The position numbers and the translations under genes are program-made. From Cloacibacillus evryensis DSM 19522 (GTDB lineage: Bacteria > Synergistota > Synergistia > Synergistales > Synergistaceae), in NCBI RefSeq assembly GCF_000585335.1, contig NZ_KK073872.1, positions 3,091,283 through 3,155,282 on the forward strand: 64,000 nt of DNA, written 5' to 3'. Below, piece after piece: positions 42,903 to 56,036 of the stretch; positions within the stretch are counted from its first letter, which is position 1, and each line of letters opens with the position of its first letter. The notes under the pieces were generated by a model. That model had not been told where the DNA came from and searched no databases. It saw nothing but the letters and a program-made list of their open reading frames with translations.

Positions 42903-43907
42903 TCAGTTCAACAAAAATCCCGGCAGCAGCTGGTCTCGACTTTGTTCTATAAGCCAGCTAAATCCGGTGATATTGGCCTCGCCATTCACATAGGGGATAA
43001 TGGCGTCAAACCCGCCAACCTTGGTCTTCTCGGTGTAATGGCTATTAAAAACCGTGCCTATTATGCTTTCGTGTTTAAAAATTTCATTGACTTTAAGCTT
43101 TTCCTGTGCCGCTAAGAGAGCCATCTTTGCAGACGTTCCGGTTCCGCACGGGGAACGGTCCACATTTGACGCGCCAAATACTACGCAGTTCTTTGCATTT
43201 TCACCTTCTCTATGAGCGCCAAATTCCACCAACAAGATCTTATTATTTTGCGGAATCAACGGGTGCTGAACTTTAATTTGTCTGTTCGCCTCTTCAAGTA
43301 TCTCCATCCCCAGTCTGCTCATAGCCTCTGCTTCGGACGGAACTACCTCGAAACCTAAATCTTCCGCCTCAATAATAGCGAAGAAACTGCCGCCAAAGCA
43401 GATATCAACCTTAACCTTTCGAGCAAGCGACGGTATATAAAGAGAGCGGCCGGCAGCATAAACAAAGGCGGGGACATTGCGCAGGGTGGCCCCGACAGCC
43501 TCTCCATCTTTGACGTCCACAGATATCGTTACCAAGCCGGCGGGCGTATCGAGAACAACCTCCGTAACAGGTTCCTTTACTGGCACCATCTTCAAATTTA
43601 CCATTGCGGAAGCTAGGCCAATGGAACCATGCCCGCACATTGACACACTCCCCCCTGTATCGCAAAACACAACCCCTGTATCAGCCTCCTCCACTGTAGG
43701 GAGCACCATAACCGCCCCAAACATATTAGCGTGGCCACGGGGCTCCATCATGATAAAACGCCGGAAGTCGTTGTGGTTTTCTCGGAAATCGTTCCACTTA
43801 TCCGCCATGCTGTGCCCTTTGAGCACCGGAGCACCGCCGATCACAATACGTGTCGGTTCGCCGCAAGTATGGGAATCAACAACGGCCACCAGCTTTCCTA
43901 TCTTCAT
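42903..43907 (-). CDS. Proline racemase / 4-hydroxyproline 2-epimerase family protein (copy A)
   Basis: Cofactor-independent racemase of 334 aa. Both catalytic cysteines are present: SVSMCGHGSIGLA near residue 90 and VDRSPCGTGTSAK near 252, which separates it from the dehydratase branch with Thr in place of one Cys. It also shows SHTCGEPTRIV. It should interconvert L- and D-proline or epimerise hydroxyproline. Divergent from the GrdE-like gene, with which it shares a 262-bp AT-rich control region. Paralog at 47739. Confidence 0.9.
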   Translation of the reverse strand: MKIGKLVAVVDSHTCGEPTRIVIGGAPVLKGHSMADKWNDFRENHNDFRRFIMMEPRGHANMFGAVMVLPTVEEADTGVVFCDTGGSVSMCGHGSIGLASAMVNLKMVPVKEPVTEVVLDTPAGLVTISVDVKDGEAVGATLRNVPAFVYAAGRSLYIPSLARKVKVDICFGGSFFAIIEAEDLGFEVVPSEAEAMSRLGMEILEEANRQIKVQHPLIPQNNKILLVEFGAHREGENAKNCVVFGASNVDRSPCGTGTSAKMALLAAQEKLKVNEIFKHESIIGTVFNSHYTEKTKVGGFDAIIPYVNGEANITGFSWLIEQSRDQLLPGFLLN

Positions 43908-44112
43908 TTTATTTCACCTCTCATGAATATTGATACCTCTCATAAAAAGCCAACGGTCCTTTGTTAGAAACCATGTTATTTTTAAGCTGATATAATGTAT
44001 TGAATTATTTTGCTGTATTTTTCTATTTCATTTTAGCCACAAAAAACTAACAGCAAAATTATTCAAGATTATCTAAAAAAATTACCTTATCATTCTTTCA
44101 TAATCTTTAATA

Positions 44113-44134
44113 TGTGTCGTAACGGCCAGACACA
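44113..44134. promoter_or_regulatory. Inverted repeat TGTGTC-N10-GACACA upstream of the GrdE-like gene
   Basis: Perfect 6-bp arms 36 bp before the TTG start, in the shared control region. A candidate site for the cassette's AraC regulator, although AraC sites are more often direct repeats. Confidence 0.35.
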
Positions 44135-44169
44135 GATCTACAGCGATCATAACCAAAGGAGGGAATGTT

Positions 44170-45477
44170 TTGAGACTTGATTTTAAGACCCTCAATATTA
44201 AGGGACTCGAGTGGGGCAAAAAAACGACGGTAATCAACAACGTCTTGTACATTAACCCCATAGAGGCTGTCGTAGCCTGCGGGACTCACCCCTATATTGA
44301 GAATATTACCCTTCACATCGCGCGTCCTGGCGAAAGCATCCGCATCATGCCAGTGAAAGATGTGATCGAACCCCGGTGTAAGACCGGCGAAGAGGGAGCT
44401 ATGTTCCCCGGATTTGTCGGAGAACTTAAGCAAGCTGGTATTGGCGGAACGCTGGCTCTTAAAGGTACGGCTGTTGTTGTAACGGAAAGCAACGACACCA
44501 ACGCTGTTTGCCGTACCGGCGGGTTTATTGATATGACCGGTCCAGCCGCCGAATACTGCCCTTTCTCCGTTTTGTATAACGTCGTGATGAACATACGGGT
44601 AAACGAGGAAGCGCAAGAAAACGACACACGGGTTGTAGATGACGCCTGTAAACTAGCCGGCCTCCGCCTCGCCGTCTATCTCGCCGAACATTGTAGAGAC
44701 ATTAAGCCCGATGAGGCAACAGTTTTCGAGACACCAGAAACGGATCCGTCACTGCCAGGCGTAGTATATGTGATGCAGATGCTGGCGCAGAACCCGCTTA
44801 TAAAAGACTTCTATATTTATGGACAACTTGCTGGGGCAACCATGATACCGACGATACTTCACCCCAACGAGATTTTAGACGGCGCGCTTGTCTCTTTTGT
44901 TGGATCGCACAATACTGTATGTTCGGATAAACAGTATATGTACGAAATACAAAACGCGCCAGTGATCGAAGAATTCTACAGGCTTCACGGCAAAGACGTG
45001 CGTTTTCTCGGCGTTATCGCGCATAACGAAGTCCTGACGTTGCCCGGCAAAATCCGCAACTCTCTTTTTACGACAAAACTCGCGAAGATGCTTGGAGCCG
45101 ACGGAGCGGTACTTGTCACGGAAGGACATGGAAACCCCGATGAGGACATCATGCTGAACGTGAAAAACCTTGAGAATGCCGGGATCAAAACGGTCATCGT
45201 TTCCGATGAGCTCGGAGGCAGGGACGGCAAGAGCCCAGGGTTGGCAGATTGGGTCAAAGAGTGTGACGCAATGGTAAGTGTGGGAAACACCCATGAATTA
45301 TTGGCTATCCCACAAAAAATGGATACCTTCATCGGCAACGAAGCTAGCTCGGAGATACTTCATGTGTCGATAGACCATCAGCCAGAAGAGCCCGATTACT
45401 TCTATACGGAGATGATTCACGTTACCGGTTCGTGCGCTCAGGCCGGGCTTTGCAGTCTCTCAGCCAAATGGATGTAA
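44170..45477 (+). CDS. GrdE-like component B alpha/beta proprotein (glycine/sarcosine/betaine reductase family)
   Basis: 435 aa, aligned throughout with the GrdE/G/I proprotein family: ARPGESIRIMPVKDVIEPR at 51-69, GGFIDMTGPAAEYCPFS at 117-133. Such proteins are cleaved to give a new N-terminal pyruvoyl group that binds the substrate amine as a Schiff base. C251 in SHNTVCSDKQYMYEIQ is in the right place for that cleavage (GrdE uses a Cys near residue 242). The start is TTG, 7 nt after AGGAGG. Directly followed by the GrdB-like gene (15 bp). Substrate unknown; components A and C are not in the window. Confidence 0.87.
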   Translation: MRLDFKTLNIKGLEWGKKTTVINNVLYINPIEAVVACGTHPYIENITLHIARPGESIRIMPVKDVIEPRCKTGEEGAMFPGFVGELKQAGIGGTLALKGTAVVVTESNDTNAVCRTGGFIDMTGPAAEYCPFSVLYNVVMNIRVNEEAQENDTRVVDDACKLAGLRLAVYLAEHCRDIKPDEATVFETPETDPSLPGVVYVMQMLAQNPLIKDFYIYGQLAGATMIPTILHPNEILDGALVSFVGSHNTVCSDKQYMYEIQNAPVIEEFYRLHGKDVRFLGVIAHNEVLTLPGKIRNSLFTTKLAKMLGADGAVLVTEGHGNPDEDIMLNVKNLENAGIKTVIVSDELGGRDGKSPGLADWVKECDAMVSVGNTHELLAIPQKMDTFIGNEASSEILHVSIDHQPEEPDYFYTEMIHVTGSCAQAGLCSLSAKWM

Positions 45478-45492
45478 GGAGGTGTCTATACA

Positions 45493-46779
45493 ATGACATA
45501 TAAAATACTACATTATATAAATCAGTTCTTCGCCGGCGTCGGCGGGGAGGAGACGGCAGACTACGAGCCAGAGATTAAAAAAGGCGCAGTTGGCCCGGGA
45601 CTACAGATCAATAATCTCTTTCAAGGCGAGGCGGAGGTGGTGGCCACCTTCATCTGCGGAGACAACCATTTTGCCACCCATACCGGACAAGTCTTGGAGA
45701 AGTTTGACGCCGTTCTTGAAGAATACCGGCCGGACATCATCATCGCCGGGCCCTCGTTTTATGCAGGACGCTACGGTCTTGCCTGCGGGAACATCATCAA
45801 AGAGGCGGCCAAGGTCCTAAGCATCCCCGGCGTTGCCGGCATGAACGTCGAAAGCCCCGCCGTGGAGATGTTCCGCAGCAACGTCTTCATCATAAAGACA
45901 GGCGATTCCGCGCGTGACATGAAAAACGCTTTGGAGAAAATGGTGCGTTTGGCTGAAAAGCTTCTCCACAAAGAACCGATAAGCGGCGCCGATGAAAATG
46001 GCTATTTCCATAGAGGTTTCAGAAAAAATTTCCGTTTAGAGAAATGCGGCGGCAAGCGTGCCGTAGAAATGCTTCTCCGCAAAATATCCGGCAGGGAATT
46101 CGCCTCCGAGTATATACAGCCAATCCCAGAGAAGGTAGAGGCCGCTCCTCACGTCAAAGATATGAGTAAAGCCACCGTCGCGTTGCTCACGACCGGCGGG
46201 ATGGTCCCAGCGGGAAACCCCGACCACATAGAGGGCTCCGCGGCGACAAAATTTGGTGTATACTCAATGAAAGGGCTTGATGCTCTTGAAAAAGGCAAGG
46301 TCGTCTCCGTTCACGGGGGATATGATACTAGCTTTGCTTATGAAAATCCCAATAGAATCGTACCGCTTGATATTTTGAGAGGCCTGGAAAAAAATGGAAA
46401 AATCGGCAAAGTCCACGATTTTTTCTACAGCACCTCCGGCACAGGAGCTTCCCTGCTAAATGGCGAAGCTTTTGGGCGAGCAATCGCGGAAATGCTGAAT
46501 AAGGCGGGAGTCGACGCTGCAATCATGGTCTCAACTTGAGGATCCTGCACACGTTGCGGAGCAGCGATCACCAAGGAAGTCGAACGTTCGGGAATCCCCT
46601 GCGCGCATATTACGGCTATCGACCCGATAGCGCACACATTTGGAAGCAACAGGATCATACACGGCGACGCCATCCCCCACCCTCTCGCACCCCCCGATGC
46701 AAACCCCAAGGCCGAATATGAGGCACGTAAAACAACTGTTATGAAAGCTCTCCATTCATTGCTTGAGGAGGCTAAATAG
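45493..46779 (+). CDS. GrdB-like component B gamma subunit, selenoprotein (UGA = Sec349)
   Basis: Selenoprotein of 428 aa. The frame appears to stop at TGA 46537-46539, but continues as U-GSCTRCGAAITKEVERSG to TAG at 46779, the hallmark GrdB/F/H sequence around the active selenocysteine (STUG-x-CTRCG). N-terminal HYINQFFAGVGGEE and the HGGYDTSFAYENPNRIVPLD block are also GrdB-like. The Sec attacks the substrate C-N bond held by the pyruvoyl partner and passes a carboxymethyl-type group to selenoprotein A. The length equals GrdB. The substrate is probably proline-related, judging from the two adjacent racemases; this is inference. Confidence 0.9.
46540..46575 (+). promoter_or_regulatory. Candidate bacterial SECIS hairpin after the Sec codon
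   Basis: CGTTGC-gga-GCAGCG (46552-46566, one G-T pair) forms a small stem-loop starting 12 nt after the UGA, flanked by GAT/ATC that may extend it. Position and size fit a bacterial SECIS read by SelB. Confidence 0.5.
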
Positions 46780-46792
46780 GCGGCCGATAAGC

Positions 46793-46840
46793 GCATTTAG
46801 GTTCTGTGGTATTATTACGGGACCTAAATGCTCATTGTTA
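46793..46840 (+). terminator. Hairpin after the GrdB-like gene
   Basis: Perfect 10-bp stem GCATTTAGGT/ACCTAAATGC, then TCATTGTTATTT. It separates the reductase genes from the AraC gene; the T-run is weak, so read-through is possible. Confidence 0.6.
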
Positions 46841-46873
46841 TTTCACGGAAATTCAATGTATGGAGGGATATAG

Positions 46874-47725
46874 ATGGCTGGGAAACGTTCCGTCCAATTA
46901 AAAAAAATCGTTAAACGTTACTGGAAATCGCGCCTTAGTGACGAGATGCGTTTCCTGGCTGCGATGTCTGCAGATGACTTACAGATATCAAGTATTCCCA
47001 AACCTCATTTTCATAATACCTTTACGATGAGCGCTCTGGAAGATGGGAGCCTGCCGATTTCATTCCATGGAGGCACCGTAATCCTGCACCCCGGAGAAAT
47101 GTTGATCATCGGCCATAACATACCCCATATGGTCGACTTGGCCCATATCAACGACGCTTGTTACTACAGGACGGCAACGATAAACGAGAGTCTCCTCGAC
47201 TATTCTGTTCTCGCAAAGATAAAAGAGGCAGAAAACACTATCTCAAAGATATCAGATAAAAGCCTTTGGGAAAAGTTTGTTCGTGAGCAGAGAAACATTG
47301 AAAGCGGCGATACAGACAAAATCAACACCATGAGATCACTTTCCGAGACGATGCTCTCCGAAATATCCAAGAATGTTCTGCTGCGTTTTCAGGTAACATC
47401 GCCATATATAAGGCGAATAATGAAATACATGGAAGATAATTATATGGTTGCACTTAGCCTGGAAGACCTAGCGAAAGAGGTAAACTTGAGCCCCTTTCAT
47501 TTTACTCGATTATTTAAACAAGAAGTGGGGATGTCTCCTCACGCCTACGTCACACAGCTTCGTGTAAACAGGGCACAGGACTTGATACTGCGTGGTGAAT
47601 CGCTGTTAGGAATCGCCTACGAACTGGGGTTTGCGGACCAGAGTCATTTCTCAAGAACCTTTTTAAAACTCACCGGCGTATCGCCGGTAAGGTTTAATAC
47701 GACATCCAAAACAGATGTTATATAG
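46874..47725 (+). CDS. AraC family transcriptional regulator with cupin sensor domain
   Basis: 283 aa. The N-terminal cupin-like domain has HFHNTFTMSALEDG and LHPGEMLIIGHNIPHMVDL; the C-terminal DNA-binding part has SLEDLAKEVNLSPFHFTRLFKQEVGMSPHAY and AYELGFADQSHFSRTF. It lies inside the reductase cassette, so it should sense the substrate and activate the cassette. It precedes the second racemase gene by 13 bp and is probably co-transcribed with it. Confidence 0.9.
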   Translation: MAGKRSVQLKKIVKRYWKSRLSDEMRFLAAMSADDLQISSIPKPHFHNTFTMSALEDGSLPISFHGGTVILHPGEMLIIGHNIPHMVDLAHINDACYYRTATINESLLDYSVLAKIKEAENTISKISDKSLWEKFVREQRNIESGDTDKINTMRSLSETMLSEISKNVLLRFQVTSPYIRRIMKYMEDNYMVALSLEDLAKEVNLSPFHFTRLFKQEVGMSPHAYVTQLRVNRAQDLILRGESLLGIAYELGFADQSHFSRTFLKLTGVSPVRFNTTSKTDVI

Positions 47726-47738
47726 GGAGGTATAAATT

Positions 47739-48749
47739 ATGAACGCAAAACGTATGGCGGCAATTGTAGACACACATACCAGCGGCGCTCCTACAAGAAT
47801 AATTATTGGAGGCGGCCCGCTTCTCAAAGGAGAAACTTTTGCCGACCACTGGCTGGATTTTAAAGAAAACCATGACGATTTTCGCCGTTTTGTAATGTGG
47901 GAACCACACGGACATGACAACATGTTCGGCGCTCTTTTGACGCGCCCTGTAAATCCGGAAGCACATTACGGGATCGTTTTTATGGACAGCGACAGCAGCG
48001 TTTCCATGTGCGGACACGGCTCAATAGGAGTCTCACGTACATTAATAGACTTAGGGATGATCGAGAAAAAAGAACCCTATACAGAGGTAGTACTAGAAGC
48101 TCCGGCTGGGCTGGTAAAAGTCAAAGTCGAGGTAAGAAACGGCGTCGTCGGGGACGTAATTCTGCGAAACGTTCCTTGCTTCGTACAGATGAAGGATGTT
48201 GGGATAACTCTTCCATCTACTGGTCAAAAGATCAAGCTTGATATCGCCTTTGGTGGAAATTATACGGCGATGGTCCCCGCAGATCAGTTCGGCTTCAATA
48301 TCGACCCCAATGAGATAAAGGAGATGATCCCGTTAGGGATAGAGATCCGAGACGCGGTCAACGATCAGATAAAATTCCAACATCCGACCAATCCGGCACT
48401 GAATAAAATAATTCTCACAGAATTCACTTTGGACGCTCCCCAAGGAGAGGCGAAACGCAATTTGGTCACTTGGGCCGCGGGGCAGCTCGCCCGCTCCGCC
48501 TGCGGTACAGGGACAAGCGCGCGTCTGGCCTGCCTGGCAGACAGGCGGCAGCTCGCCCCCGGCGTATGGTTCGACCACGCGGGCGTCACAGGCAGTATTT
48601 TCAACGGTTCATATGAACCCGGCCCAAAGGTCGGCGAATTTAATACCATTATCCCTTACATAAAGGGGCGCTCCTATGTAACCGGTTTCAACTGGCTCAT
48701 CCAGCAGGAAGGCGATGAGTTAGCGGACGGATTCCTTATCAAGAGATAA
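47739..48749 (+). CDS. Proline racemase / hydroxyproline epimerase family protein (copy B)
   Basis: 336 aa; cysteines in SVSMCGHGSIGVS and LARSACGTGTSAR as in copy A. About half of the residues agree with copy A over the length, for example IIPYIKGRSYVTGFNWLIQQ. The VDTHTSGAPTRII opening differs at a position near the active site (usual HTGGEPTR), which may alter specificity. Two copies in one cassette suggest action on two stereoisomers or two related substrates. Confidence 0.88.
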   Translation: MNAKRMAAIVDTHTSGAPTRIIIGGGPLLKGETFADHWLDFKENHDDFRRFVMWEPHGHDNMFGALLTRPVNPEAHYGIVFMDSDSSVSMCGHGSIGVSRTLIDLGMIEKKEPYTEVVLEAPAGLVKVKVEVRNGVVGDVILRNVPCFVQMKDVGITLPSTGQKIKLDIAFGGNYTAMVPADQFGFNIDPNEIKEMIPLGIEIRDAVNDQIKFQHPTNPALNKIILTEFTLDAPQGEAKRNLVTWAAGQLARSACGTGTSARLACLADRRQLAPGVWFDHAGVTGSIFNGSYEPGPKVGEFNTIIPYIKGRSYVTGFNWLIQQEGDELADGFLIKR

Positions 48750-48861
48750 CGAATCTATTTCAGCAAAATTTTATAAAACAGATCATATGTCTCTACGGAG
48801 ATGTACTGTTGGTTTGTTGCTTTTTGAAATAGAAACAAAAAACCAGAAGGGAAGTGATTTT

Positions 48862-50493
48862 ATGAATTATTTGGTAGTTAAAAATCTCGATATTATGGTG
48901 ATCGTTATATACTTTATAGCGGTTATCGGCAATGGCATCTACTGGAGCAGGAAGGCAAAGCAAAGCAACGATTTTCTGCTGGGTGGCAAATCCTTCGGCA
49001 TATTCTCCACTCTCTGTACTCAGGGCGCGACAATGAAAGGCTCTGGGGCTCTGATGGGGTACAGTGCGGGAGCCTACGTCAGCGGGACTGGAGTTCTCAT
49101 TTCCAGCCAATGTTACAGCCTCGGCGCATGGGGAGCCATACTTTCCGGAATTGCACGGAAACTTAAAAAATGTTCCAATATCATAGACATACGCAGCTCA
49201 GGCGATCTTTTTCTCAGAAGGTTCGACAGTCCCCTGCTAAAAAAACTATCGGGACTTGGCGGCGCGTGGCTGGCGCTGTCAATAATGAGTGGAAATATGG
49301 CGGCGGTCGGACTGCTCATACATCTGCTATTTAACAAATACGGGCTAACCTTTGAGGCTTCACTCATTATCGGCATGACAGTTACAATCATCTACACAAC
49401 TCTCGGCGGCCTAGTCTCTGTTGTTCACAACGACGTGCTGCAATGGCTGATCATGACGCCGCTAATCTTCATTGTCGTTCCGGCGATGCTAATAATATAC
49501 GGCGGGGCGACACCGACGGCGATCCATGCCGCGCTGAATGCGGAACAATATTTCTCCTTGAGACCTAACATCTGGTGGCTGGGTTATCTTTTAAGCGGTG
49601 TATTGGCGGCCTGCTGCGACGTAAACCATCTTACAAGATTTATCACCGCCAAAGATGAGAAGACCGCCGTCAAAGGAAGCATGCTTGGCTTCACCTTCTG
49701 CACTCTGCTTGCCGGGCTAGTGATCTTCTTCGGCCTTACTGCGGCGATGCTCATCGAACCATCCGTTGTCGCTTCAAATAAAGACGGCGTGATCCTCGCC
49801 CTTATTTCTAGGATACTGCCAGCAGGCCTCGTCGGCCTCTTTATCGCGGCAACTCTCGCCATGACCATCTCTACGATCGACTCAAACCTCAATACCTCCG
49901 TCCTTTGCATAATGGTCGACATTCTTGAACCCTCGCTGCCCAAGGAAACAACGGAAAAACAGAAACTTTTCTATTGCCGCGTAATCAACTTTATCATCGC
50001 CGGACTCTCAATATTCTTCGTACTTAAAGTCAAGGGGATCGTGGCAATAATGGGAATGGGGTTCAACGTCTACTCTTCGGCGTTCTTTGTTCCGCTTATG
50101 TCCTGCATGTTCTGGAAAAAGGCTACGAGAAACGGCTGCCTTAGCGGGATCGTCTCCGGAGGTCTTATGGCAATCATCGCCATTAACATGAAACTGCCGT
50201 TACCCGTCGTGTTGGGCGTAGCTGTCTCGCTGGTATTGACAATTTTAGTCTCCTTGGTCACCTGCAAAGGCAATGCAAAGAGAGGCCTGCTACCGGGGTT
50301 CAGCGACAGCGGGCAAAAGATCGACCGTCAAGTATTTATAGCTTGTATGCTCGGAGCCTCCGGTTCACTGATTTTTTCTATCGGCGTGGGGATGTGGATA
50401 AACTGGATTTGTATTTTTATTGGCACGGCGGCAATGTATTTCTGCGTACGTATTCTCGATAGAGCGTTTTCAGAGTATCAGCTAAGCGCCTAG
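48862..50493 (+). CDS. Sodium:solute symporter (SSS) family protein
   Basis: Na+-coupled transporter of 543 aa with about thirteen hydrophobic segments. SSS traits are the opening YWSRKAKQSNDFLLGGKS, the loop SGDLFLRRFDSP and ATLAMTISTIDSNLNTSV. ATG 48862 is chosen for GAAGGGAAG upstream; the frame opens earlier at 48787 without a site. Relatives carry proline, betaine or pantothenate. As the last gene of the cassette it is the likely importer of the reductase substrate. Confidence 0.87.
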   Translation: MNYLVVKNLDIMVIVIYFIAVIGNGIYWSRKAKQSNDFLLGGKSFGIFSTLCTQGATMKGSGALMGYSAGAYVSGTGVLISSQCYSLGAWGAILSGIARKLKKCSNIIDIRSSGDLFLRRFDSPLLKKLSGLGGAWLALSIMSGNMAAVGLLIHLLFNKYGLTFEASLIIGMTVTIIYTTLGGLVSVVHNDVLQWLIMTPLIFIVVPAMLIIYGGATPTAIHAALNAEQYFSLRPNIWWLGYLLSGVLAACCDVNHLTRFITAKDEKTAVKGSMLGFTFCTLLAGLVIFFGLTAAMLIEPSVVASNKDGVILALISRILPAGLVGLFIAATLAMTISTIDSNLNTSVLCIMVDILEPSLPKETTEKQKLFYCRVINFIIAGLSIFFVLKVKGIVAIMGMGFNVYSSAFFVPLMSCMFWKKATRNGCLSGIVSGGLMAIIAINMKLPLPVVLGVAVSLVLTILVSLVTCKGNAKRGLLPGFSDSGQKIDRQVFIACMLGASGSLIFSIGVGMWINWICIFIGTAAMYFCVRILDRAFSEYQLSA

Positions 50494-51408: not shown

Positions 51409-52560
51409 TTACCGTATATTTTTTATTATATTTACACTTTCGATATAATTGATACCGCGCCTTTTTTGTTCGTCTATTACGAAATTATAGAGTTTATCCG
51501 ACGCCGCCAGCTTTTCCGGAGCTATCACACCCTTTTCTTTTATCAGGCCGGAAGTCACCGCATGCGCAAATATCGAACAGGTGAGCCCGGTACAGCGCCC
51601 CATCGAATTATTCCATGACGCCTCGTCAAACCGGTCATAGAGATCCCACGTGTATGTAACGTAATCACGGCCCTTATACCCTTCGACGACTATTTTCATG
51701 ATCGTCAAATCTCGGTCGCCTGCTTCAGGGTCCATCTTCCACATGGGAAAAAGGAGGTCGCAGGCAACATCACGCGGCCTGAGCATGTTTCCCCCTAGAA
51801 GCCTCTTTTCCTCGTCAAAGAGCCCCATCGTACGCAGAAGCCGCATCTGCTCAACATGCCCTGGCCATCTCATGGTACGTTCCTGCATGTTCCTCGCCTT
51901 TATGTTCTTCATAAGAGAACGGAGCCCGTCGGTAATGAAGGTCTCAAGGGTACCGACTTTGGGAAATTCCTCAATATCCAGATCACCCATCGCCTCTATT
52001 ACCACCGGCTTGAAATCGCTGATGTAGCGGGCTGGCCGTGTATATTCCTCTATAACGTCGGTCGCAGACCATGTAATCTGATAGTTGAACGGAGGAATTT
52101 TCTTTTCGGGAATGCCGCCGACGCATATTACCGCCTTCTCCACTTCGTCGAGCAGAGCGGCCCCGCGCCCCACGAGAAAATTCGACATGCCGGGCGCGAC
52201 ACCGATATCCGGCACCACAGTAACGCCATTTTCCTTTGCCAGTCCGTCAAGCTCCTCAAAATCCTCCGGCATGAACGATATATCGCAAAAATTTTTCCCA
52301 GACTTTATCACGGCTTCCATCATCGCGTTCCCAAAGCGCCCAGGGACCCCCGCGGTAACTATATCAGCGCCCTTCAATATACCTGAAAGTTTTTGGGCGT
52401 CGGTACATGAACAGACGGCCGTTTTCACAGTGGGGTTTTTTGCCTTTATTCTCTCGAGCACGCTTTCGTTTAGATCCACCACGGTAACGTCAAAATCATT
52501 GCTCATATCGCCAGCGATGATATTCCCCACAAGCCCTCCGCCGATTTGTACTGCCTTCAT
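51409..52560 (-). CDS. Saccharopine dehydrogenase family protein (copy 1)
   Basis: 383 aa with an N-terminal Rossmann fold (IGGGLVGNIIAGDM; Asp after strand 2 in VTVVDLNE suggests NAD) and the C-terminal saccharopine-dehydrogenase domain (GIPEKKIPPFNYQITWSA, YTRPARYI). Members oxidise or form secondary amines such as saccharopine or carboxyspermidine. It forms a pair with the paralog at 52592 and shares an operon with an NhaC transporter, hinting at catabolism of lysine or a related opine-type amine. Confidence 0.86.
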   Translation of the reverse strand: MKAVQIGGGLVGNIIAGDMSNDFDVTVVDLNESVLERIKAKNPTVKTAVCSCTDAQKLSGILKGADIVTAGVPGRFGNAMMEAVIKSGKNFCDISFMPEDFEELDGLAKENGVTVVPDIGVAPGMSNFLVGRGAALLDEVEKAVICVGGIPEKKIPPFNYQITWSATDVIEEYTRPARYISDFKPVVIEAMGDLDIEEFPKVGTLETFITDGLRSLMKNIKARNMQERTMRWPGHVEQMRLLRTMGLFDEEKRLLGGNMLRPRDVACDLLFPMWKMDPEAGDRDLTIMKIVVEGYKGRDYVTYTWDLYDRFDEASWNNSMGRCTGLTCSIFAHAVTSGLIKEKGVIAPEKLAASDKLYNFVIDEQKRRGINYIESVNIIKNIR

Positions 52561-52591
52561 AGATAACGCCTCCTGTCGGTGATGTTTTTTA

Positions 52592-53755
52592 TTACAATTC
52601 CACTATTTCCTGATGTATCTTAACGTTTCTCTTCTTTAACTCGTTTATAAATATTTCTACGGCCTTGCCGTTTTTCCCGACCATCTCCGGAGGGTTGACT
52701 CCTGGGTTGTTAAGAATACCTTCGGCGATCAATTTTCCCACAATGACACACGGAAAGCCGGTCGTTCTGGACATGGACGGGTAGAATGTTTTCATGTCTT
52801 TTTCATCATACAGGCTGAACTGATACTGCAGACGCCGGCCGTCTTTTCTGCCCGTAACTTCGATATAATAAAACGTAAATTCGTTTTCATCTTTTTTAAG
52901 TTCCATTTTCGGGTAGGCAAGCCCGGCAAACACATCTCTTGGCCGCACGCTCATTCCGTTGATATTTACCGGCGTCAAATCAAATAAGCCTATTTCACGA
53001 AGGAATTCCATCCGCGCCGCGGTACCTGGATATCTTAGGGTATACTCCGTTACGTTGGGGCTGGGGATCGTATCGAGAAGCGTTCTAGAACCGTCTGTGA
53101 AGAATCCTTCCATTTGCGGAAGTTTCAACCCGGGTATCTTGAAATCAATAGTTTTACAACCGGAAAGCGCCGGCACGCTGACAATTTTACCCTCTTTTTT
53201 TATCCTTGCTGGCCGCACGTATTCTTCCACAAGGTCATCGAGAGAAAAGACAAGTTTATAATTGAATGGCTCTTGAGGAGAAAGCGGCAATCCTGTAACA
53301 TAATAGGTGACATCTTCCACCTCATCCAGCTGATCACAGGCATATCCTATCAAAACGCTTGAAGATCCTGGAGCGACGCCTACGTCTTCAAAGGCGGTGA
53401 CTCCGCATTTTTTCGCCTCGGCATCCCAGTCGCGATAGTCTTCTCCCATAAATGAAATATCGGACATATTGACGCCTGCCTTTATCACGGCACCGACCAT
53501 CTGGTAGCCAAGAGCGCCGGGAACCGCGCCTATCACAAGATCCTGCCCCCTGACTGCCTCCGTTATCGATACTGGAGAGGCAAAATCGACTTCGCTTTTT
53601 CCCGTGATCTTCCCTTTCGATCTCTTGATAGTTTCTTCAAGTTTCTCTTTCCTCACATCACAAACTGTTACGTCATAGCTCTCGTCCGCCGCCATATCAA
53701 GCGCCATCACAGAACCTACGAGCCCATTGCCAAGTACAGTAACTTTTTTCTTCAT
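52592..53755 (-). CDS. Saccharopine dehydrogenase family protein (copy 2)
   Basis: 387 aa, same architecture as copy 1: GNGLVGSVMALDM, DVTVCDVRKEKLEE, NMSDISFMGEDY, DVGVAPGSSSVLIGY, GLPLSPQEPFNYKLVFS and EEYVRPARI. The Cys/Asp after strand 2 differ slightly, so cofactor or substrate preference may differ. It is 31 bp upstream of copy 1; the two may act in series or as a heteromer. Confidence 0.86.
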   Translation of the reverse strand: MKKKVTVLGNGLVGSVMALDMAADESYDVTVCDVRKEKLEETIKRSKGKITGKSEVDFASPVSITEAVRGQDLVIGAVPGALGYQMVGAVIKAGVNMSDISFMGEDYRDWDAEAKKCGVTAFEDVGVAPGSSSVLIGYACDQLDEVEDVTYYVTGLPLSPQEPFNYKLVFSLDDLVEEYVRPARIKKEGKIVSVPALSGCKTIDFKIPGLKLPQMEGFFTDGSRTLLDTIPSPNVTEYTLRYPGTAARMEFLREIGLFDLTPVNINGMSVRPRDVFAGLAYPKMELKKDENEFTFYYIEVTGRKDGRRLQYQFSLYDEKDMKTFYPSMSRTTGFPCVIVGKLIAEGILNNPGVNPPEMVGKNGKAVEIFINELKKRNVKIHQEIVEL

Positions 53756-53799
53756 TGCAAAATTCCTCCTCTTTCAATCGGTTCATAAAGAAATGTTTT

Positions 53800-55239
53800 T
53801 TACTGTTCTTTCTTTACATGAAACACAAAAACACCCATATATCCAAACACCACCGCAACCAACGGATTTACCCAGTTCAGGACAGCATAGGGAGCGTATG
53901 AGAATGCCGCCGTGCCCAGAGTGGCCGACATATAAGCTCCGCATGTCGTCCATGGTATGAGCGGGGAAGAAAGTGTGCCGGCATCCTCAAGCGTTCTCGA
54001 CAGCATGTGTGGGGCCAGTCCGGCTCTCTCATAGGCCGGTTTCATCAGACGCCCGGGCAGCACTATTGCTATATATTGGTCCCCTACGAAAAGGTTCACT
54101 CCTATACACGACACTACAGTGGCAGCAATAAGATTCCCGGGTCTTGAGAGGACCCTGGCGGAGGCGTTCAGAATAACGTTCAGGTACCCGACAGCTTCAA
54201 GTATCCCTCCAAACCCTATGGCTATCCAGCTTAACGAGATAGTCCACATCATTCCCTGCAATCCGCCGCGTGTCAGAAGAGTGTTGACCATTTCCGCAAT
54301 TTGATCGCCAAAGACATCCGCCGATACCGTCCCCGTATATCCATACTGCGCCGCGCTAATAATATTCGCAAAACTTTCGCCCTGAATAAACATTCCGCAC
54401 AATGCGCCAGCAACTATCCCAAGCATCATTCCAGGAATGGCAGGAACCTTCAAAAGGGTAGAGACTATAACGATAACTGGCGGCAGCAACAGGAATGGGC
54501 TGATCAGCTGTACGGACGCAAGCGCTTTTCTTATCTCAAAGACTCTCGTGGGGTCATAATTTCCCGAAATATTGATCGAAAGAGTAATCACGATAAAAAT
54601 CATTAACGTTATCGCGTAACTGGTACCAGTCGTATAGAGCATTGATTTAATATGATCGTACAGCTTTGCGCCGGATACCGCCGGCGCCAAATTCGTCGTA
54701 TCCGAGAGAGGGCTCATTTTATCGCCGAAATACGCCCCGGATATCACCGCCCCTGCCGTCATACCCGGAGATATTCCCAGCCCCGCCCCCACTCCCATCA
54801 ACGCAACGCCGATACTGGCGGCGGTCCCCCAAGAAGACCCAGTAGCCAGCGAGACGATGCTGCAGATCAACAGAGAAACTATCAGGAATGTTTTAGGCGT
54901 TAAAATGGCAAGTCCGTAGTCAATCATAGTGGTAATCACGCCCGACGTCATCCAAACGCCGATCATGATCCCCACCATCATCAGGATAAAAAAGGCGGAC
55001 GTCGCCGCGTTGACAGCCGATACATATCCATCCTCCAAGACCTGCCATTTATTCCCCAGGCGCAGTCCCAGAACAATCACGATGAGAATACAAACGAATA
55101 AAGGGATATGAGCGTCCAGTTTCAATTTCACAACACAAAACATCACGATCGCCGCTACGGCGGCAATTATGGCAATTGACTCAAAGAGGCCTGGCCGCCT
55201 GCCGTGAGGGCTGTTTTTTTCAGAAAGATGATTCAACAA
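53800..55239 (-). CDS. Na+/H+ antiporter, NhaC family (copy 2)
   Basis: 479 aa; about eleven hydrophobic segments; SSWGTAASIGVALMGVG, GAYFGDKMSPLSDTTNLAPAVSGA and DAGTLSSPLIPWTTCGAY are NhaC landmarks shared with the gene at 20483. The start is TTG at 55239, 6 nt after GGAGG; the frame runs on to 55269 without support. First gene of the leftward operon with the two saccharopine-dehydrogenase-like genes, probably exchanging their substrate or product. Confidence 0.87.
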   Translation of the reverse strand: MLNHLSEKNSPHGRRPGLFESIAIIAAVAAIVMFCVVKLKLDAHIPLFVCILIVIVLGLRLGNKWQVLEDGYVSAVNAATSAFFILMMVGIMIGVWMTSGVITTMIDYGLAILTPKTFLIVSLLICSIVSLATGSSWGTAASIGVALMGVGAGLGISPGMTAGAVISGAYFGDKMSPLSDTTNLAPAVSGAKLYDHIKSMLYTTGTSYAITLMIFIVITLSINISGNYDPTRVFEIRKALASVQLISPFLLLPPVIVIVSTLLKVPAIPGMMLGIVAGALCGMFIQGESFANIISAAQYGYTGTVSADVFGDQIAEMVNTLLTRGGLQGMMWTISLSWIAIGFGGILEAVGYLNVILNASARVLSRPGNLIAATVVSCIGVNLFVGDQYIAIVLPGRLMKPAYERAGLAPHMLSRTLEDAGTLSSPLIPWTTCGAYMSATLGTAAFSYAPYAVLNWVNPLVAVVFGYMGVFVFHVKKEQ

Positions 55240-55547
55240 TATACACCTCCAATTAAATGGTTTTTTCAAATAAAATATAAAAATGTTTTTATTAAGTGAT
55301 AAAATTATATAGTTTTGTATGAATTATTTACATATTTTTTAACCCCTATTGCACACATTAAAAAGAATATATTGTCTGTTATAATCATATAAAAAGAACA
55401 TTGCCCTGTATATACACTATAAATTTTTGAAACCTGCGACAATCGGGTATAATATCTTACATCAATGAACGATTAACGATATATTCTTTACACGGAGAAG
55501 GGTTGCAGGCCTAATATGTAAGACTAAATAAAAGGTGGTGAGATACC
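55240..55547. other. AT-rich divergent control region, NhaC / Lrp
   Basis: No gene. A possible rightward promoter is TTGAAA (55427-55432), 15-bp spacer, TATAAT (55448-55453). Another TATAAT-like box lies near 55380. The Lrp-type protein probably binds here. Confidence 0.4.
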
Positions 55548-56036
55548 TTGGGACGCGGCAAAATTATTAATCTGGATAAAATCGGATGGGAAATTTTAAA
55601 TGAGTTACAAAAAAATCCACGGATATCTTACCGGGAGATTGGCAGAAAGGTCAATTTATCCTGTTCCTCTGTTCTGGAGCGTATTCGGAGAATGGAGGAA
55701 GACGGCATCATACAGGATTATCAGGTCGTCCTAGATACGCAAAAGGTAGGATATATGATACAGGCGATCATAAAAATCAAGATCTATTCTTTAAATGACG
55801 AAGATATCCTTCTAAAAAAGCTTCGCTCAAATATTTATGTCCGGCAACTTTGGGTCACAACAGGCGACAGCGATTTTATAATGGAAGCCGTTTTTCCAGT
55901 TATGAAGGACATGAATGATTTCCTTGTGATACTGGGCAAGCACGGGCGGACATTTTCATCTGTAGTCATAAACAAACCAATTTTCAACAAACGCCTATAC
56001 TCCTTAAATAGTCAGGAAAACAGAATAAACGATTAA
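55548..56036 (+). CDS. Lrp/AsnC family transcriptional regulator
   Basis: 162 aa: N-terminal helix-turn-helix (DKIGWEILNELQKNPRISYREIGRKVNLS, SSVLERIRRMEEDGII) and C-terminal RAM/ACT-like effector domain. The start is TTG at 55548 after AAAGGTGG. Divergent from the NhaC-saccharopine-dehydrogenase operon, which it presumably controls in response to an amino acid. Confidence 0.9.
   Translation: MGRGKIINLDKIGWEILNELQKNPRISYREIGRKVNLSCSSVLERIRRMEEDGIIQDYQVVLDTQKVGYMIQAIIKIKIYSLNDEDILLKKLRSNIYVRQLWVTTGDSDFIMEAVFPVMKDMNDFLVILGKHGRTFSSVVINKPIFNKRLYSLNSQENRIND

Follow-up and report, generated by a model that had tools for sequence, protein, structure and literature searches.

Which substrate does a selenoprotein reductase serve when its genes lie together with two members of the proline racemase family? 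The question is raised by a cassette at positions 42903-50493 of a stretch of 64,000 nucleotides from Cloacibacillus evryensis DSM 19522 (contig NZ_KK073872.1, positions 3,091,283 to 3,155,282; the whole stretch is hereafter the window), in which GrdE-like and GrdB-like subunits of a component B are accompanied by two racemase-family proteins, an AraC-family regulator and a sodium:solute symporter of the SSS family. In anaerobes of the gut and rumen, component B determines the range of small molecules that can serve as electron acceptors by cleavage of a C-N or C-F bond. Glycine, sarcosine, betaine and fluoroacetate are the substrates of the characterised enzymes known to us, with D-proline handled by PrdAB. 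Both subunits were found in a separate clade, here called clade X, and in the branch of it that bears racemases GrdE, judging from aligned sequences, most likely no longer carries a pyruvoyl group. The reading we prefer, at a probability of roughly 0.4, is that the component B encoded by the cassette acts on a proline-type substrate without N-H, such as proline betaine or N-methylproline, and would work with the shared GrdA and GrdC/GrdD of the genome.

A component B of a separate clade

The initial annotation placed six genes of these types within the cassette, and both the exact coordinates and the domain models bear this out. The forward-strand gene at 44170-45477 encodes a GrdE-like alpha subunit of 435 amino acids (Gly_reductase, PF09338, 415 bits) and is followed on the same strand, at 45493-46779, by a gene for a GrdB-like selenoprotein beta subunit of 428 amino acids (GRDB, PF07355, 462 bits); the adjacency of the two types places the pair in the component B family. 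GrdB also passes the general subfamily model TIGR01918 (498 bits, cut-off 65). Its full length is obtained by readthrough of an in-frame TGA at 46537-46539 (forward strand), which is read as selenocysteine at residue 349 within STUGSCTRCGA, a UxxCxxC motif kept in all eight members of clade X. That this codon is read through is indicated by the 79 residues downstream of it, since these are conserved in all members. A possible bacterial selenocysteine insertion sequence hairpin at 46535-46575 (forward strand) has a minimum free energy of -16.3 kcal/mol and a z score of -2.1, which is modest by itself. A sequence search for solved structures of GrdE or GrdB found none.

Every NCBIfam subtype cut-off was failed by the two proteins. 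The best subtype scores came from the sarcosine models GrdF (522 bits, 800 needed) and GrdG (334 bits, 780 needed), on which the glycine-type enzymes of the same organism outscore the window proteins; the glycine-type model TIGR01917 gave 445 bits (cut-off 602), the betaine model GrdH 460 (775), the fluoroacetate model FarE 164 (675), and the D-proline reductase models PrdA and PrdB 23 (700) and 89 (300). Trees were built with reference enzymes for sarcosine (Peptoclostridium acidaminophilum grdG/grdF), betaine (grdI/grdH-type genes of A. noterae and E. gilvus) and glycine (glycine-type genes of A. noterae and Photobacterium), the labels of unannotated references being based on similarity and neighbours. 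Clade X lies outside all three groups, with support of 100/100 in the GrdB tree and 98/99 in the GrdE tree, the latter rising to 100/100 when the very long FarE row and the row of locus L029 are left out. The suggestion that this is a component B of a new substrate type thus stood up to the phylogeny, which placed neither subunit inside the glycine, sarcosine or betaine clades.

The partner components are encoded elsewhere in the genome, where a single copy of grdA with its UGA, adjacent GrdC and GrdD homologues (48% and 45% identical to the E. gilvus proteins) as well as SelA and SelB were found, so that a lack of components A or C does not speak against the assignment. No second copy of GrdA or of the GrdC/GrdD pair was found. 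A search for D-proline reductase in this genome gave none, the best match to the PrdA model, at 45 bits against a cut-off of 700, being its own glycine-type GrdE. The GRDB model matched eight places in the genome, and a FarE-model match elsewhere in it reaches 890 bits (cut-off 675). In both trees another component B (L042:8055-10655; G000:C1:2648054-2650654) is the sister group of betaine GrdI/GrdH; it has no pyruvoyl cysteine (QGGLYG) and adjoins TRAP/TAXI transporter-like genes. The far operon also has a second GrdB-like gene nearby (L043:7766-8476; G000:C1:1306764-1307474), which is devoid of the N-terminal half and carries cysteine in place of selenocysteine (STCGTSTRCGA).

Two forms of the cassette and the GrdE processing site

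A second genome of the genus (G137) has the same six genes in identical order and orientation with 85-94% protein identity, and the ratio of nonsynonymous to synonymous substitution rates between the two genomes is 0.030-0.068 across all six genes, the lowest value (0.030) being that of the second racemase. The cassette is therefore not a chance assembly, and these rates show all six genes to be functional and under strong purifying selection.

Searching 188 Synergistota genomes with GrdE returned seven members of clade X, spread over five genomes and each at least 61% identical, the next match being at 46%. A constant core of GrdE, GrdB, AraC and SSS genes surrounds each member read in those genomes, and all complete cassettes have homologues of the AraC regulator (38-86% identity) and of the symporter (43-91%). 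The window genome and G137 hold two copies each, one with and one without racemases, and the remaining three genomes have the racemase-less form alone, which makes five racemase-less loci (L039, L045, L046, L047 and L048); the racemase-bearing form is derived. In the window genome the GrdE gene of the racemase-less paralogue lies at G000:C1:27115-28416. One further locus, L053 (JAQVSG010000085.1), came from scanning about 85,000 species genomes; it is a 5-kb contig filed under Caldisericia whose GrdE is 79% identical to that of the window. Here the end of grdC is followed by grdD, GrdE and GrdB, and this position of a racemase-type reductase directly behind grdC/grdD ties the clade X reductase to component C. 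Identity to the genes of the window genome is 85% for grdC and 70% for grdD. Since the genome containing L053 is the sole carrier of a clade X gene among 54 genomes of its phylum, and given the identity of its grdC, L053 is probably a Synergistota contig misplaced in the Caldisericia bin (or a transferred one); no racemase was found in a search of that bin. A search of viral contigs returned no relative.

The two forms differ at the processing site of GrdE. In C. difficile the GrdE peptide that starts at residue 242 bears a cysteine-derived pyruvoyl group, and the pyruvoyl group of PrdA, at residue 421 in the same species, is likewise derived from cysteine (PMC9908766). Cys242 lies within GNCVSACDK in the GrdE proteins of A. 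noterae and locus L049, and the clade X sites were aligned by anchoring on the DK that follows. The five racemase-less members read HCTVC(S/A)DK and have a cysteine, Cys248, at the equivalent place. In the racemase-type branch all three proteins have Asn248 (HNTVCSDK in the window and G137, HNTVSSDK in L053), encoded in the window by the AAT codon at 44911-44913 (forward strand). The equivalent residue is cysteine in all glycine and sarcosine references and phenylalanine in betaine GrdI, and FarE has no cysteine there; position 248 is the only fixed difference between the two forms at which the glycine and sarcosine references share cysteine with the racemase-less members while all betaine references differ. 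A three-residue insertion ahead of the site is common to the window GrdE and the racemase-less members. At residue 251 the window protein has cysteine and L053 serine, and betaine GrdI likewise shows Cys or Ser three residues after the lost position. Neither FarE nor GrdI has the processing cysteines or is made as a proprotein (PMC10838667). The description of the window GrdE as a proprotein in the initial annotation has accordingly become doubtful. In GrdB, residue 301 is asparagine in the three racemase-type proteins and glutamate in the racemase-less members as well as in those glycine, sarcosine and betaine references that were compared. The role of the GrdE pyruvoyl group is still unsettled in the literature (PMC9908766), and two paralogues that differ in the cysteine and in the presence of racemases within one and the same genome constitute a natural experiment on it.

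The two racemases and the proposed substrate

Both racemase-family genes give firm matches to Pro_racemase (PF05544), with 342 and 325 bits. They were compared with the marks of proline racemases described previously (PMC1964878, PMC4364671). Racemase 1 (42903-43907, reverse strand, 334 amino acids), which is divergent from grdE, has a full proline-type active site, with Phe, Leu and Phe at sites 1, 4 and 5, Cys91 and D250-R-S-P-Cys254; both the MCGH and the DRSPCG motifs are present, and its score on the curated equivalog model is 374 bits against a cut-off of 556. It is about 70% identical to another of the five racemase-family genes of the genome, one that has family-wide relatives. Racemase 2 (47739-48749, forward strand, 336 amino acids) keeps MCGH, Phe at site 1 and the catalytic residues Cys91 and Cys255, and has ARSACG for DRSPCG (Asp to Ala251, Pro to Ala254), Trp245 at site 5 and EPHGH in place of EPRGH. 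Among 29 aligned racemase loci of the phylum, alanine for the Asp of DRSPCG is confined to racemase 2 and its orthologue in G137. Its nearest relatives (57-59% identity) retain the Asp; where their surroundings were read, they adjoin a gene resembling FAD amino-acid dehydrogenases. Of the two proline racemases initially annotated, the first is thus canonical and the second deviates from the published motif.

The DRSPCG motif contacts the carboxylate or the ring nitrogen of the substrate (PMC4364671). The carboxylate contacts of the trypanosome enzyme are C130, G131, H132, C300, G301 and T302 (PMC6224121), and as the motif Asp (Asp296) is absent from these, it probably binds the substrate nitrogen. 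The racemases in the cassette point to a proline-type substrate, and a nitrogen without N-H is suggested by two independent losses at sites that would face the nitrogen, Cys248 of GrdE and Asp251 of racemase 2.

In the preferred reading the SSS symporter would import the substrate and the AraC regulator would sense it. Racemase 2 would equilibrate the L and D forms of a proline derivative without N-H (proline betaine, that is stachydrine, or N-methylproline), and racemase 1 would handle proline itself. In the racemase-bearing branch no Schiff base on GrdE would hold the substrate, as in the betaine and fluoroacetate reductases; the GrdB selenocysteine would attack the alpha carbon of the bound substrate, expelling the nitrogen, and the resulting carboxyalkyl selenoether would be handed to the shared selenoprotein GrdA, after which GrdC/GrdD may form an acyl phosphate, or the selenoether may simply be reduced off. 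The most specific version, in which the ring of an N-methylated proline is opened reductively with conservation of energy and a pyruvoyl-free GrdE/GrdB and an Asp-less racemase lead to a C5 selenoether on GrdA and an acyl phosphate from GrdC/GrdD, we regard as improbable when taken as a whole. If true, it would be the first component B with a non-acetyl product. The conserved branch predicts chemistry that can be tested, namely that GrdE carries no pyruvoyl group and that the substrate has no N-H.

Several points weigh against a substrate of this kind. Racemase 1 resembles an ordinary proline racemase and so points to plain proline, and residue 251 of GrdE, Cys in the window protein and Ser in L053, could allow processing there. 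The assignment of the motif Asp to the ring nitrogen was reached partly by elimination. In the literature found, no member of the proline racemase family is documented to racemize an N,N-dimethyl amino acid. GrdA and GrdC are known as carriers of two-carbon units, and we know of no case in which they bear a C5 carboxyalkyl group from an opened ring; a single GrdA and a single GrdC/GrdD pair were found in this genome. The idea that the racemases prepare the substrate, put forward in the initial annotation, also remains uncertain in view of the sister cassettes, in which the reductase module does without racemases, and of the atypical racemase 2.

The strongest alternative, although we consider it doubtful, is that the GrdE/GrdB pair reduces D-proline (or cis-4-hydroxy-D-proline), both racemases making D-proline from L-proline and component B opening the ring to 5-aminovalerate. 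The two racemases, one of them with a complete proline-type active site, the PutP-like importer and a role left vacant by the absence of PrdA from the genome all agree with this. A proline-specific protein B has been placed beside a proline racemase in C. porcorum (PMC10838667), and this species grew better on serine plus threonine plus proline than on serine or threonine alone, a weak hint in the same direction that is countered by the absence of growth on proline alone (PMC3709534). It is further opposed by the missing Asp of racemase 2, by five other loci at which the reductase module has no racemase and by GrdE, as the pyruvoyl group of PrdA comes from a cysteine (PMC9908766) and the aligned residue in the window is Asn. 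The substrates first guessed therefore divide, D-proline and hydroxyproline being disfavoured because a pyruvoyl Schiff base with a secondary amine needs the lost cysteine, and proline betaine fitting better.

Rather unlikely is a glycine-type, N-carboxymethyl substrate that would be converted to acetyl phosphate, with the racemases acting on the group released or having nothing to do with the reductase. Acetyl phosphate is what every characterised component B working with GrdA and GrdC yields, and this proposal draws on the sharing of single-copy GrdA and GrdC/GrdD, on the clade X reductase behind grdCD on L053 and on the homologous importer and regulator of sister cassettes without racemases. 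An unrelated role is, however, hard to square with the arrangement of the genes, since in both genomes examined racemase 2 starts 13 bases past araC, within the operon, and racemase 1 shares the promoter region of the reductase; moreover, we know of no natural N-carboxymethyl proline compound. That an ordinary glycine, sarcosine or betaine component B lies near racemases by chance is highly improbable, as the relative success of the sarcosine models is offset by scores far under their cut-offs and below those of the organism's own glycine-type enzymes, and as both subunit trees exclude it, which refutes it as far as phylogeny goes.

Neighbouring genes, earlier reports and known systems

The intergenic region between the divergent racemase 1 gene and grdE (43908-44169, no strand) is the presumed common control region of that gene and the reductase operon. 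The regulator gene (46874-47725, forward strand) matches HTH_18. The symporter (48787-50493, forward strand; SSF) is PutP-like, far under the cut-off of the NCBIfam PutP model (112 bits against 515), and its true start is probably at 48862 rather than 48787, as conservation begins at about residue 26. A conserved CATTTTTTTACAAGA-like element lies about 90-150 bases ahead of grdE in the five racemase-less loci and L053, where it is a candidate AraC site; ahead of the window grdE the CATTTTTTTACAAGA motif is weak, 84 of 500 shuffles being equally good, and it is not used as evidence there. Downstream, at 51409-56036, are two saccharopine-dehydrogenase-like genes, an NhaC/ArcD-like antiporter and an Lrp regulator, which look like a separate amino-acid locus; we rejected these genes as part of the cassette, to which they are not adjacent in G137.

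In C. porcorum, which has eight grdB genes and a far operon, a protein B has been named 'proline' after the adjoining proline racemase, with putP in the cluster map (PMC10838667, Leong et al., 2023). This is probably a cassette like that of the window, labelled by neighbourhood alone, and a literature search found no published assay of it. The initial statement that no enzyme of this composition has been characterised thus needs the qualification that the cluster has probably been mentioned already. The existence of the cluster is not new; new are the separate clade and its division into two forms, the loss of the pyruvoyl cysteine, the atypical racemase 2, the link to grdCD and the lack of a true D-proline reductase. 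One anaerobic fate of proline betaine described previously, in Eubacterium limosum, is its demethylation by MtpB (PMC12155760), and a literature search for its reductive cleavage, or for a GrdB-type enzyme acting on it, gave only demethylation.

Compared with known systems, the cassette shares the fold family, UxxCxxC and the alpha-then-beta gene order with sarcosine GrdG/GrdF of P. acidaminophilum, which in contrast are only 39-46% identical, group with the glycine enzymes in both trees and have Cys242. Betaine GrdI/GrdH resemble it in the absence of the pyruvoyl cysteine and in the Cys three residues later, but form a separate clade and have a BCCT transporter and no racemase. Fluoroacetate FarE/FarB of Cloacibacillus, present also elsewhere in the window genome, are likewise a divergent component B without the pyruvoyl cysteine, yet part of UxxCxxC is missing, the neighbours are others and the FarE model separates the two (890 against 164 bits). 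A selenoprotein reductase and a proline racemase also go together in the D-proline reductase PrdA/PrdB with PrdF, although PrdA retains its pyruvoyl cysteine and the window genome has no prd genes. Both racemases have the two catalytic cysteines of the proline racemase/4-hydroxyproline epimerase family, the best solved match being AsProR (7pb3); racemase 2 departs from this family in having Ala for the Asp and Pro of DRSPCG, and its Trp at site 5 is as in the bifunctional archaeal TlProR. Closest of all are the racemase-less clade X cassettes, with the same order of GrdE, GrdB, AraC and SSS genes and subunits 61-68% identical to those of the window, whereas no racemases lie near them and their GrdE retains the pyruvoyl cysteine, C248.

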